Origin: Aggregatilinea lenta
Lineage (GTDB): Bacteria > Chloroflexota > Anaerolineae > Aggregatilineales > Aggregatilineaceae
Reading direction: 5' to 3'
Assembly (NCBI RefSeq): GCF_003569045.1
Contig: NZ_BFCB01000003.1
Coordinates: forward strand, 248,001-312,000
DNA: 64,000 nt
Program-made: the position numbers and the translations under genes
The notes under the pieces: model-generated
The model's input: only the letters and a program-made list of their open reading frames with translations
Database searches by the model: none
Told to the model about the DNA's origin: nothing
Shown here: in pieces, positions 33,845 to 52,699 of the stretch
How the letters are laid out: every line of letters begins with the position of its first letter
Numbering within the stretch: the first letter of the stretch is position 1

Positions 33845-34180
33845 CCACATATCCACAGGCGTTGATCTGGAATAGTAAACGCCAAAGCGAAGGTCAGAGA
33901 GCCGCCGGGTGCTGTGAAGGCGGTCCTAGCGCGGGCGTGGAATGGTCCAGGGAGCCGTACCGTCAAACGGGCGTTCCCCAGTAGACGGCACCGGAGGCCC
34001 CACCGTTATCACGGGGACGGGTATCGATGCGCGAGCGTCCGTACCCTGCAAAGTGAAGCTGGCTTCCTGACGAAACAATCCGCGATCACCGTGGATTTTT
34101 TGTTTCTAGGGCACAGTCGCTTAACCAAGGTGGCACCACGGGATTCCCCCTCTCGTCCTTGAACGTAGAGGGGGATTTTT
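33845..34180 (+). promoter_or_regulatory. T-box riboswitch leader (tRNA-Trp) of the trp operon
   Basis: The leader shows T-box landmarks in order. AGTAAAC begins the specifier-stem base. AGAGAGCCG...GGGTGCTGTGAAGG forms the AG bulge and distal loop. GAATGG follows with the TGG (Trp) specifier at 33943-33945. CACCGTTATCACGGGG lies in stem III, and the T-box motif AAGGTGGCACCACGGG is at 34127-34142. A terminator closes it: TCCCCCTCT (34145-34153) pairs with AGAGGGGGA (34167-34175) and TTTTT follows. Uncharged tRNA-Trp would stabilise the antiterminator and switch on trpE, whose start is 31 bases on. A promoter was not assigned. Confidence 0.93.
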
Positions 34181-34210: not shown

Positions 34211-35737
34211 ATGGCCATTTCACCCAACCCCGAACTCACCCGCGTCCGCGCGACCCCCGACCGCGAGACGGTCCGCCGCCTGTTCGACCAGGGCGACCTC
34301 GTGCCCGTCTACCGCACGCTGCTGGCCGACCTGGAAACGCCCGTGTCCGTGTACCTCAAGCTGGCGCAGGGGGGCGGTCCGTCGTTCCTGCTGGAAAGCG
34401 TCGAGGGCGGCGAGCAGATCGGGCGCTATTCGTTCATGGGCGTCAGGCCCAAGGGCATGGTCACCGTGCAGGACAACCGCGTGACGGTGACGCGCCACGG
34501 CGACACGTCCATGCGCGACCTGCTGCCCGGCGAAGATCCGCTGCATGTGGTCGAGCGCGAATTCGAGCGCGTCCAGCCGGTGCGCATCGACGGGCTGCCG
34601 CGTTTCATCGGCGGCGCGGTCGGTTACGCGAGCTACGACATGGTGCGCTACTTCGAGCGCCTGCCCGCCACCGCGACGGACGAGCTGCACCTGCCCGACG
34701 CGGCGTTCATGCTGGCCGATACGCTGGTGATCTTCGACCACGCGCGCCACCAGTTGATCGTGCTGGCGAACGCGCACAATACCGGCAATCCTGACGCGGC
34801 TTACGACGACGCGCTGGCCCGCATCGATGGCATCATCGAGGCGCTGGCGCAGCCGCTGCCCTTCCTGCCCGAACCCGTGCCCAGCACCGAAGCCGACGGC
34901 GCATTACAGTCCAACATGACGCGCGAGCAGTACGAAGCCAACGTGCGCGCGGCGAAGGAGTACATCGCGGCGGGCGACGCCTTCCAGATCGTGCTGTCGC
35001 AGCGCTTCAGCCGCCGCACCACGGCGGAGCCGTTCACCATTTACCGCGCGCTGCGGGCGCTCAATCCCTCGCCCTACATGTTCTTCCTGCGCTACGATGA
35101 CGACCTGAGCGTGATCGGGGCATCGCCGGAAATGATGGTCCGGCTGGAGGACGGCATCGCCACGGCGCGGCCCATCGCGGGCACGCGTCCGCGCGGCAAG
35201 TCCGAGGCCGAAGACGACGCGCTGGAAGCCGAACTGCTGGCGGACGAAAAAGAGCGCGCCGAGCACGTCATGCTGGTCGATCTGGGCCGCAACGACCTGG
35301 GCCGCGTCTGCGACTACGGCACGGTGCGCGTCCCGGCGATGATGTACGTCGAGCGCTACTCGCACGTAATGCACATCGTCAGCCAGGTCCAGGGCACGCT
35401 GCGCAAGGGTATGAGCGCCTTCGATCTGCTGCGCGCGACCTTCCCCGCCGGGACGCTCAGCGGCGCGCCGAAGGTCCGCGCGATGGAGATCATCGAGGAG
35501 CTGGAAGGCACGCGGCGCGGGCCGTACGGCGGCGCGGTGGGCTACTTCAGCTTCGACGGCTCGATGGACACCTGCATCACGATCCGCACGATGATCATGC
35601 AGGGCGACACGGTGTACTTCCAGTCGGGCGCGGGCATCGTCGCGGACAGCGACCCGGCGCGCGAATACGACGAGACGGTGAACAAGGCGCGCGCGGTGGC
35701 GGTGGCCGTCACCAACGCGGAAGACGGGCTGGCCTAG
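34211..35737 (+). CDS. trpE: Anthranilate synthase component I
   Basis: The 508-residue protein combines chorismate with ammonia (from TrpG) to give anthranilate. The N-terminal domain has the Trp feedback motif in FLLESVEGGEQIGRYSF. The catalytic C-terminal domain shows NPSPYMFFLRYDD, IGASPEMMVR, IAGTRPRGKS, DLGRNDLGRV, SGAPKVRAMEIIEE and the FQSGAGIVADSDP end. Length is normal. GGAGG is 9 bases before the ATG. It is first in trpEGDCFBA and directly under T-box control, so the pathway is probably regulated both by transcription and by feedback. Confidence 0.96.
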   Translation: MAISPNPELTRVRATPDRETVRRLFDQGDLVPVYRTLLADLETPVSVYLKLAQGGGPSFLLESVEGGEQIGRYSFMGVRPKGMVTVQDNRVTVTRHGDTSMRDLLPGEDPLHVVEREFERVQPVRIDGLPRFIGGAVGYASYDMVRYFERLPATATDELHLPDAAFMLADTLVIFDHARHQLIVLANAHNTGNPDAAYDDALARIDGIIEALAQPLPFLPEPVPSTEADGALQSNMTREQYEANVRAAKEYIAAGDAFQIVLSQRFSRRTTAEPFTIYRALRALNPSPYMFFLRYDDDLSVIGASPEMMVRLEDGIATARPIAGTRPRGKSEAEDDALEAELLADEKERAEHVMLVDLGRNDLGRVCDYGTVRVPAMMYVERYSHVMHIVSQVQGTLRKGMSAFDLLRATFPAGTLSGAPKVRAMEIIEELEGTRRGPYGGAVGYFSFDGSMDTCITIRTMIMQGDTVYFQSGAGIVADSDPAREYDETVNKARAVAVAVTNAEDGLA

Positions 35738-49727: not shown

Positions 49728-49927
49728 GGTGGTTTAGGCCCTCACGGATCCCGATCGAACAGGACGGTTTGCGACTCGCGGTGTTTCGCGAATCACTGAG
49801 GGGACAACCGAGCTGGCGGTAATGATACGCCCGTGTGCATGTCACCTGCGGCGGCGGACCCCCTTTGTTAAAATACTAGCATGTGGATGTGAAAAAATAC
49901 AGTTTCCCTCTGCGAAGGACAGGACAA

Positions 49928-50983
49928 ATGACATCTGATGCTCACACTCCGGCCACGATCGGGCAGTGGCCGCTGCTCAGACGCTGGACGACCGCCGTCA
50001 ACACATGCAACTGCCCGGACGTACACCAGGCGGATACGCTCACGCGCTGGCTGGTGATCGCGCGGGCGTGTGTATTCTCCATGACGTTCATGTCGGGCCT
50101 CATCGGCGTGCTGCTGGCGGCGTTGCAGGGCGGATTCGACGACCGCCCGCTGGTCCGGCTGTGGTTGGGCGCGCTGTCTGTGATCGGGCTGATGGCGGCG
50201 CACGCGACGAACAACCTCGTCAACGACTGGACCGACGTGCGCAGCGGCGTCGATACGGAAGACTACCCACGCTCGCAGTACAGCACGCATCCGGTGCTGG
50301 GCGGCCTGACCACGCCGGACCGTCTGCTGGCCGTGGCGTTGGGTCTTACGCTTTTCGACGCCGTGATCATGCTCTATCTGGCGTGGGTCAGCGGCGCGGC
50401 AGTGATCGCGTTCGCTGTTAGCGGGCTGGTGTTGAGCCTGGGCTACACGATTTTCCTCAAACGCTATGCCCTGGGCGAGATTACGGCGCTGGTGGTCTGG
50501 GGGCCGCTGATGACCGGCGGCACGGTTTACGCCATCAGCGGCGCGATCACGCGTGACACGCTGCTGCTGACGCTGCCCTACGGCCTGATCGTGGCGTCGG
50601 TGCTGATCGGCAAGCACACCGACAAGATCGAGTACGACCGGCCTGTAGGCGTGCACTCAATCCCGGTACTGCTGGGGCGCGTCGCGTCGCTGGTGCTCAA
50701 CAAGCTCGCGTTCATTGGCTTCTACGTGCTGATCGCCGCGCTCGTGGTGACAGGCGTCGCGGGACCGTGGATTCTGCTCACCGTGCTGGCGCTGCCCCGG
50801 CTGGTGACGGCGTGGAAGGTGTACTCGCAGCCCAGGCCCGCGACGCGCCCCGACGACTGGCCTGTCTGGCCATTATGGTACGTCGGCTGGGCGATGTTCT
50901 TCAACCGGCAGGCGGGCGCGCTGTTCATCCTGGGTCTGATCCTGAACCTGATCGTGCCGGAGATCGCGGGCGCGGTCGGATAG
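49928..50983 (+). CDS. UbiA-family prenyltransferase (MenA-like)
   Basis: The 351-residue membrane protein has about eight hydrophobic segments and the two Asp-rich motifs of the family, NNLVNDWTDVRSGVD (about residue 95) and DKIEYDRPVG (about residue 225), which bind the prenyl diphosphate through magnesium. It would prenylate an aromatic acceptor; a menaquinone-type role is plausible but no other men genes are near. I chose the ATG at 49928, with GAAGGA 8 bases upstream, over the start at 49883. The last part after residue 300 is Trp-rich. Confidence 0.85.
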   Translation: MTSDAHTPATIGQWPLLRRWTTAVNTCNCPDVHQADTLTRWLVIARACVFSMTFMSGLIGVLLAALQGGFDDRPLVRLWLGALSVIGLMAAHATNNLVNDWTDVRSGVDTEDYPRSQYSTHPVLGGLTTPDRLLAVALGLTLFDAVIMLYLAWVSGAAVIAFAVSGLVLSLGYTIFLKRYALGEITALVVWGPLMTGGTVYAISGAITRDTLLLTLPYGLIVASVLIGKHTDKIEYDRPVGVHSIPVLLGRVASLVLNKLAFIGFYVLIAALVVTGVAGPWILLTVLALPRLVTAWKVYSQPRPATRPDDWPVWPLWYVGWAMFFNRQAGALFILGLILNLIVPEIAGAVG

Positions 50984-51093
50984 CGGGTGGATGTCGGCAT
51001 GCCATACTGACCGCTTGACGGCGCTCCAGAATTCGTGATACGCTGTCACACGATTGTTTGAACCGATCGATGAGTCTTGAACAGGTGGTGACT

Positions 51094-51159
51094 ATGTCAG
51101 CCGCAATTCTATCGACCTCCATTCGTCGCACGATGCGCGTGTGCGGGTGCGCCTGCTGA
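51094..51159 (+). CDS. Cys-rich leader micro-ORF of an attenuator
   Basis: A 21-codon frame reads MSAAILSTSIRRTMRVCGCAC and stops, with AGGTGG just upstream of the ATG. An in-frame ATG at 51070 would add 8 codons. Three of the last five codons are TGC (Cys). A candidate promoter (TTGACG at 51015-51020, weak -10 near 51039) lies in front. Ribosome stalling on these codons could be the sensing step of the downstream attenuator. Confidence 0.55.
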   Translation: MSAAILSTSIRRTMRVCGCAC

Positions 51160-51215
51160 CCGTCGTCACGGCCTGTCATCATCCCAACCTGAACTGACCG
51201 GCTCCGTGCCATACG

Positions 51216-51317
51216 GCCACAGGCGCAAACACGCCCTGTGGCTTCTTAGATCCTCCCTGGCGATCCACGTCATTTTCATTTGAGGACAGCCACCGCATCG
51301 TGCTCGTGGCTGTTTTT
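51216..51317 (+). promoter_or_regulatory. Candidate four-segment transcription attenuator before the MFS gene
   Basis: Segment 1 GCCACAGG (51216-51223) pairs with segment 2 CCTGTGGC (51235-51242). Segment 3 ACAGCCAC (51286-51293) pairs with segment 4 GTGGCTGT (51306-51313), and TTTT follows: a Rho-independent terminator. Segment 2 also contains GTGGCT (51238-51243), which can pair with AGCCAC of segment 3, so 2:3 excludes both 1:2 and 3:4. The terminator loop CGCATCGTGC (51294-51303) is also the exact reverse complement of GCACGATGCG (51128-51137) inside the micro-ORF. Confidence 0.65.
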
Positions 51318-51403
51318 GATTCTTCACCCATGATGCGGACGCCGGGACAGCCTGCTGCCCCGCCCGCCTGACAACCATTCACAATCGGAAAGGACAGGCA
51401 GCA

Positions 51404-52699
51404 TTGTTTGCCTCACACATAACTCGACGCGACGCGTACCGGATCTACCTGATCATGGAGGGCGCAACCGCGTTTTTCCTGGGTTTGATTTTCACGGTGA
51501 ACATGGTCTATCAGGTCACCGTGGTGGACCTGAATCCGCTTCAGCTCGTGCTCGTCGGCACGACGCTGGAGGCGGTAATCTTTCTATTCGAAGTGCCGAC
51601 AGGCATCGTGGCGGACGTCTACAGCCGCCGCCTGTCGGTGCTGATCGGGCTGGCGCTGATCGGCGCGGGCTTCGCGCTGGAGGGGCTGGTTCCCGCGTTC
51701 GGCGCGGTGCTGGCGGCGCAGGTGCTGTGGGGCCTGGGCGCGACCTTCACCAGTGGCGCGACCCAGGCGTGGATCGCGGACGAGATCGGGGAGGATCGCG
51801 CGGGCGCGGCCTTCCTGCGCGCGGCACAGGTCGGCGCGGTGGCCGGGTTGGTCGCAATCCCGATCAGTGTGGCACTGGCCAGCTTGAACGTGCGTATCCC
51901 GATCGTGCTTGGTGGGGCGCTGTTCGTCGTACTCGCGGGCGGCCTGTCGTTGGTGATGCCGGAGGACGGTTTCACGCCCGCGCCACGCGTGACGCGCTCC
52001 CCGTGGGGGCCGATGCGCCAGACGCTGCGCGACAGCCTGCACTTGATCCGGGCGCGCGGCGTGCTGCTGACGTTCCTGGCGATCTCGGCGGTGCTGGGCC
52101 TGTACAGCGAAGGCTTCGACCGTCTCTGGACGGCGCACTTTCTGGGCGACTTCACGCTGCCCGCCCTGGGCAGCCTGAAGCCCGTGGTCTGGTTCGGCAT
52201 CATCGGCGCGGTCGGATCGCTGCTGTCAATCGGCACGACCGAACTGGCGCGGCGGCGCGGCAGCATCGAGACGCCGCAGGCGATGGCCCGCGCGTTGATC
52301 GGTCTGACGCTGGGCACGGTGGGCGCGATCCTTGTGTTCGCGCTGGCGGGGCGCTTCGGCCTCGCGCTCGGCGCGTACTGGATTGCGTCCGCGCTGCGCA
52401 GCACGTCCGAGCCGATCTTCAACGCGTGGCTGAACCGCAGCGTCGAGTCGTCCGTGCGCGCGACCGTGTTTTCGGCGGTCGGGCAGGTGAATGCCATCGG
52501 CCAGATCGCGGGTGGCCCCTGGATCGGCTGGATCGGCACGGCGTGGTCACTGCGCGCGGCCCTGTCGATCAGCGGGCTGATGTTGACCCCGGCGGCGCTG
52601 CTGTTTGCACGCGGCGCGCGCCAGAGCGCGGACGCGGGTCCCGATGGCCGCGCGCTGCCGGACGTGCCCGTTCTGGTGAGCATTGAGGAGACGGTGTAG
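51404..52699 (+). CDS. MFS transporter, drug-efflux-like
   Basis: The 431-residue protein has twelve hydrophobic segments; EVPTGIVADVYSRRLSVLIG is motif A after TM2, and LWGLGATFTSGATQAWIADE lies in TM4. The family includes tetracycline- and macrolide-type exporters. The start is probably the TTG at 51404, with AAAGGA 9 bases upstream. Its 5' leader contains a micro-ORF and a terminator, so expression is probably conditional on translation or amino-acid status. Substrate unknown. Confidence 0.85.
   Translation: MFASHITRRDAYRIYLIMEGATAFFLGLIFTVNMVYQVTVVDLNPLQLVLVGTTLEAVIFLFEVPTGIVADVYSRRLSVLIGLALIGAGFALEGLVPAFGAVLAAQVLWGLGATFTSGATQAWIADEIGEDRAGAAFLRAAQVGAVAGLVAIPISVALASLNVRIPIVLGGALFVVLAGGLSLVMPEDGFTPAPRVTRSPWGPMRQTLRDSLHLIRARGVLLTFLAISAVLGLYSEGFDRLWTAHFLGDFTLPALGSLKPVVWFGIIGAVGSLLSIGTTELARRRGSIETPQAMARALIGLTLGTVGAILVFALAGRFGLALGAYWIASALRSTSEPIFNAWLNRSVESSVRATVFSAVGQVNAIGQIAGGPWIGWIGTAWSLRAALSISGLMLTPAALLFARGARQSADAGPDGRALPDVPVLVSIEETV

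Follow-up and report, generated by a model that had tools for sequence, protein, structure and literature searches.

How is the TetA(P)-like pump gene of Aggregatilinea lenta controlled? We analysed the DNA upstream of this gene in the window, by which we mean the whole stretch of 64,000 nucleotides, part of a genome of 6.2 megabase. An earlier note on this DNA had proposed an attenuator with a cysteine-rich micro-ORF before an efflux-type MFS gene, and had suggested that it could sense either cysteine supply or ribosome stalling by an antibiotic. The translation-coupled attenuator before a drug-exporter-type gene stands, with antibiotic stalling as the likely signal; cysteine-supply sensing does not. 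Our modelled folds suggest that the leader is probably an inducible attenuator that reads the position of the ribosome on the micro-ORF and senses stalls near its start codon.

The product of the gene scored 339.7 bits against the NCBIfam model for TetA(P) (NF000043, cut-off 750) and 281.2 bits against that for Tet(40) (NF000049, cut-off 800), and it is ~42% identical to the plasmid-borne TetA(P). To judge from its sequence, it is a homologue of tetracycline pumps that lies below the curated cut-offs, and not a member of either family. Its nearest homologues come from entries named Chloroflexi bacterium, Anaerolineae bacterium and Anaerolinea sp., and the pump was found in 105 of the 154 genomes of the order (122 matches). 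The leader and the gene contain the following features:

51015 to 51044, forward strand: promoter-like pair TTGACG and TACGCT, spaced by 18 bases, predicted from sequence.
51083 to 51088, forward strand: Shine-Dalgarno sequence AGGTGG, six to eleven bases 5' of the micro-ORF ATG.
Shine-Dalgarno and start region: segment 1, paired in minimum-free-energy folds with the ORF end and the bases after it, about 51153 to 51178.
51094 to 51159, forward strand: micro-ORF of 21 codons, translated as MSAAILSTSIRRTMRVCGCAC and a stop, with counterparts at the same place in relatives.
51128 to 51137, forward strand: segment X (codons 12-15, GCACGATGCG), complement of the terminator loop.
51148 to 51155, forward strand: segment A, the 3' end of the micro-ORF with the codons for Cys19-Ala20-Cys21, pairing with segment B.
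51171 to 51177, forward strand: possible anti-RBS segment GCCTGTC, complementary to GACAGGC adjoining the MFS start (p=0.07 in the window alone).
51215 to 51243, forward strand: hairpin 1 (B:C), in which GGCCACAGG (51215-51223) pairs with CCTGTGGCT (51235-51243).
51220 to 51227, forward strand: segment B, overlapping the 5' arm of hairpin 1.
51280 to 51319, forward strand: predicted intrinsic terminator hairpin, arms 51280-51293 and 51306-51319, T-run 51313-51317, tail TTTTTGATTC.
51294 to 51303, forward strand: loop segment L (CGCATCGTGC) of the terminator hairpin.
51404 to 52699, forward strand: MFS transporter gene, TetA(P)/Tet(40)-like by NCBIfam and Pfam MFS_1, with a TTG start.

The layout described in the earlier note was borne out. 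The micro-ORF with its Shine-Dalgarno sequence is there, as are the two hairpins, the second carrying the T-run, and the alternative pairing between them (2:3), which we found in folds with an early-stalled ribosome; segments X and L are perfectly complementary over 10 pairs (-22.6 kcal/mol), as had been noticed, and the TTG start lies 87 bases beyond the T-run, close to the ~90 bases first given. Two further pairings were absent from that description, namely the 8-base perfect complement of segment A to segment B, and the pairing of the Shine-Dalgarno and start region with the end of the ORF (duplex z -3.82). None of 100 dinucleotide shuffles folded as stably as the leader (z -3.95). Hairpin 1 has a poor T-run and resembles the lone terminator hairpin of relatives, whose promoters stand at the homologous position and follow TTGAC-N17-20-TAnnnT. 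An automatic terminator scan, which allows loops of up to 8 bases, missed the hairpin at 51280-51319 because its loop is longer than that. A known riboswitch or other Rfam family over the leader was rejected, as a covariance-model search of 50980-51420 returned 0 matches at E up to 1. Elsewhere in the window, Rfam family RF00230 (T-box leader) matches 33853-34163 with 93 bits at the gathering cut-off; an ORF for a putative anthranilate synthase component I (34211-35737) follows after 47 bases. A genome-wide search for a second copy of the leader, using a promoter-plus-ATG pattern, gave four matches, none of the leader type, and is a weak negative since the spacer limit of the pattern also skips the window's own copy.

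To assess how a ribosome on the micro-ORF would alter this fold, we computed partition functions with a ribosome footprint of -14 to +16 masked at each codon; these are equilibrium folding predictions, in which transcription timing is ignored. The predicted probability of the terminator was 0.95 in free RNA; a P site at codon 1, 2, 3 or 4 lowered it to 0.01, 0.01, 0.14 and 0.29, respectively. It was mixed at codons 5-7 and reached 0.99-1.0 at codons 8-19, and for codons 1-3 and 11-19 it behaved alike under two other footprints. Early stalls yield a fold in which X is joined to the terminator loop, A to B, and hairpin 1, by its 3' arm, to the 5' arm of the terminator. In dinucleotide-shuffled ORF bodies (n=400), the terminator probability fell by at least 0.8 in 2 cases and by the native 0.945 in none; codon permutations (n=400) did so in 1 case and none, respectively, and shuffling the middle region 50 times gave a fall of 0.8 once. 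A ribosome at the stop codon was predicted to bring back the X:loop pairing and to abolish the terminator once more; a stall at the end of the ORF might therefore also induce, and the switch modelled here may not be start-specific. What computation yields directly is the set of elements, its conservation in relatives and a predicted fold with two states. Among the traits of ribosome-stall uORF transcription attenuators (vmlR/ermK type), these results include a conserved, Shine-Dalgarno-led micro-ORF, a predicted terminator and antiterminator that exclude each other, and, in the model, a stall position that decides the fold.

From these results we infer how transcription, termination, ribosome position and inducer may be linked. 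Without a ribosome, or once it has left the first codons behind, the RNA would form both hairpin 1 and the terminator, and transcription would end short of the pump gene; the Shine-Dalgarno and start region would also be paired with the end of the ORF as long as the RNA is free. A drug that freezes the ribosome on the first codons would leave the start region covered and the ORF body free, so that segment X could take the terminator loop and segment A could take hairpin 1. Hairpin 1 would release its 3' arm, which would join the terminator's 5' arm (the 2:3 pairing); the terminator would be blocked and the pump transcribed. The earlier note had worried that segment 1 in its numbering, the first hairpin arm, lies 57 bases after the micro-ORF stop, farther than in classical trp attenuators, which makes the coupling less than straightforward; this worry vanishes if the switch is taken to include, as segments, both the loop complement and the ORF 3' end.

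Which part of the micro-ORF matters was examined among the relatives. We read the upstream DNA of 109 of the 122 pump matches, with 13 second copies omitted, and applied a rule that takes no account of the peptide; it looks for a TTGAC promoter over 150 bases upstream and, 20-75 bases past the -10 element, for a Shine-Dalgarno-led ATG ORF of 5-45 codons. The promoter was present at 29 of 109 order loci, and every one of those 29 had a micro-ORF by this rule, with TCA (17) or ACA (7) as the predominant second codon. A broader set of 42 leaders was chosen by eye, five of them doubtful (L017, L095, L129, L142 and L157), and removal of near-duplicates left 35 for counts at the ORF start; there, codon 3 is mostly GTC, GCC or ATC, with no sequence conservation beyond it. 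Among these leaders, only the start of the micro-ORF is conserved. Within one genus, represented by five species, the 3' end of the ORF is invariant past the stop codon and the remaining leader is variable. The motif TGATTC occurs in 15 of the 42 leaders against about 2.5 expected, mostly directly after the T-run; the terminator tail, at 51313-51322 here and in other leaders, is often TTTTGATTC. By a strict Shine-Dalgarno rule over 330 bases upstream, a micro-ORF preceded 0 of 46 further homologues (L044-L089, mostly Bacillota), a rule that also misses the further-out leader of L047, the same locus as L016. One homologue of the window's own family (L006) had no recognisable micro-ORF. Most pump homologues of genus g46 (L092-L141) are without a recognisable micro-ORF leader, and neither do L014, L030 and L031 (family f2, 55-57% identity) have a recognisable leader; these three may mark where it was lost.

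This pattern bears on whether the ribosome might instead be arrested by its nascent peptide, with a macrolide, phenicol or similar drug causing an ermC-like stall at a defined codon. Classical inducible resistance leaders act in this way, according to the extracts of one account that we draw on (PMC5418344), and some of the leader peptides here are hydrophobic near the start (for example, MTVFTVMIAFR in L153). The lack of conservation past codons 2-3 argues against it, as do four leaders whose nine-codon micro-ORFs have unrelated sequences and the TetA(P)-like nature of the pump family, and we consider such an arrest unlikely. If the leader is a switch read through ribosome position, there is about an even chance that its inducer is a tetracycline-class drug or another start-codon staller, the likeliest we can name; this class of inducer is suggested by a modelled switch that answers codons 1-4, by an ORF conserved at its start alone, and by the TetA(P)-like product. 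Tetracycline stalls ribosomes at the start codon of the toiL uORF, and one example among tetracycline-resistance uORFs is only four codons long (PMC12121999, in the portions used here).

We next consider whether relatives share the switch and what its output is. Folding was extended to 11 of the 15 leaders whose tail contains TGATTC. In L028, a distant leader from another family, terminator probability was 0.61 in free RNA, 0.01 at codon 2 and 0.69 at codon 15, and 0 of 200 shuffles attained a fall of 0.55. In L004 it was at most 0.04 at codons 1-7 and 0.56-0.71 from codon 11, so this leader is predicted to be antiterminated when free or early-stalled and terminated with late ribosomes (4 of 200 shuffles equalled the late-minus-early difference). 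By equilibrium folding, L003, L008 and L091 showed no switch, and that of L005 was slight.

Many leaders also appear, in these models, to use a hairpin over the pump RBS as an output. Complementarity to the pump RBS exceeded that of shuffles across the 42 leaders (Fisher p 5.6e-7; 3.8e-6 with fixed geometry), p-values that are too small because related sequences were treated as independent. The excess was absent from 67 leaderless homologues of the order (p 0.19) and from 46 other homologues (p 0.17), the latter set containing L047, which duplicates the leader-bearing L016, along with a few other Chloroflexota. With early stalls, predicted RBS accessibility rose in 9 of the 42 leaders and fell in 1, a shift that was not significant vs. 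free RNA (Wilcoxon p 0.12) and weakly significant vs. mid-ORF stalls (0.026). Control might then be mainly translational, with a leader that hides the pump RBS and a terminator that is secondary and varies between lineages; the varied helix sequences behind the pairing excess, its absence from leaderless homologues and a compensatory change in the RBS pairing of L026 all favour this. In the window, however, the RBS pairing is weak (p 0.07) and RBS accessibility stays between 0.35 and 0.40 across ribosome positions, against a strong change in terminator probability. We regard mainly translational control as quite improbable here, where the two layers may act together.

The cysteine-rich tail calls for another explanation than the one first offered, in which a shortage of Cys-tRNA would stall ribosomes on the tail Cys codons and block termination. 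Three Cys codons do fall within the final five of the micro-ORF, and among the 8 homologues of the window's family, 7 of them with a micro-ORF, 5 of those 7 carry two or more Cys among their six final residues. Outside this family, however, the tail is not conserved: most relatives' tails are without Cys codons, contrary to the conservation that the earlier note had proposed to look for. Within it, the A:B pairing is kept in the five Cys-tailed leaders (8/8, 7/8, 8/8 with two G-U, 8/8 and 7/8), and at two sites (in L008 and L005) both sides have changed, each time turning a Cys codon into an Arg codon with the pair preserved, which indicates RNA pairing rather than cysteine as what is maintained. 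Nor do the folds help: with a ribosome awaiting Cys17 or Cys19, terminator probability was 1.0 or 0.99, leaving the terminator formed, and only at Cys21 was it ambiguous, ranging from 0.01 to 0.98 with the footprint assumed. The product, moreover, is a pump and not a cysteine enzyme. On conservation, on the pair-preserving Cys-to-Arg changes and on stall-position folding, we reject cysteine sensing, which we hold to be very unlikely. Covariation, the check suggested at the outset, favours A:B through these two compensatory changes; the second hairpin, like the X:loop pairing, was seen in this genome and in none of the relatives, and so neither has comparative support. Outside the f1 family (with L007), A:B and 1:A pairing were not significant (p 0.18 and 0.80), and global duplex scores of the ORF against the downstream region (Stouffer -3.4 for A:B, -2.2 for 1:2) are too permissive for a local reading.

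That the leader is constitutive, its small ORF incidental and its terminator that of the UbiA-type gene just upstream (49883-50983), which a terminator there could serve, is scarcely credible, because the promoter stands between that gene and the hairpins, promoter, micro-ORF and hairpin recur before the pump homologues of relatives, and shuffles fail to reproduce the switch.

An attenuator that senses start-codon stalls, the reading we prefer, has counterparts among known systems. The clostridial tetA(P) gene is controlled by attenuation. That locus (L169) shares with ours a homologous pump and a terminator-like hairpin upstream; it differs in that no comparable Shine-Dalgarno-led micro-ORF was seen upstream of the hairpin. 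As far as the consulted excerpts of the following reports go, the vmlR leader of Bacillus subtilis likewise has a uORF on which an antibiotic-stalled ribosome stops an anti-antiterminator, so that an antiterminator replaces the intrinsic terminator, and it combines transcription with translation attenuation, as may be the case here; it precedes an ABC-F gene, answers other inducers and belongs to another phylum, and the likeness drawn here is one of mechanism (PMC9226507). In toiL, before topAI of Escherichia coli, the response is to ribosomes that tetracycline stalls at the start codon, and several stall positions work, but what it governs is a toxin-antitoxin gene, by occluding the RBS and by Rho-dependent termination, and not an intrinsic terminator before a pump (PMC12121999). 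In ermK-type attenuators and lmo0919, translation of the leader gives termination and a drug stall gives antitermination, as proposed here, whereas their inducers are macrolide-type drugs or lincomycin and their products a methylase and an ABC protein (PMC5418344). In Sinorhizobium meliloti, a DUF1127 gene has a tetracycline-responsive uORF attenuator, in which early uORF codons decide termination and the RBS may pair with the uORF; the gene is unrelated, and accessible C-rich codons there promote termination (PMC12218461). By analogy, we rate our leader as one that would work like vmlR and ermK-type attenuators, with the start-codon stall of toiL.

We found no description of such leaders in Chloroflexota in the open-access papers searched. 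Most known drug-inducible attenuators come from Bacillota, the remainder from a few other groups. We tentatively propose, as a possibility on which we would not wager, an old chromosomal class of Chloroflexota leaders that senses ribosomes frozen at the start codon, in which the peptide is irrelevant past codons 2-3, the ORF body serves as RNA segments, and the output (terminator or RBS hairpin) has been swapped repeatedly from lineage to lineage while the sensor was kept. If true, this would be inducible control of tetracycline-type pumps outside clinical bacteria. A conserved attenuator of this kind, ahead of TetA(P)-like pumps and in a phylum most of which is uncultured, would point to tetracycline-type sensing as ancient and environmental, and the start-codon stall would be a regulatory signal independent of the peptide, on which tetracycline and retapamulin should act alike.
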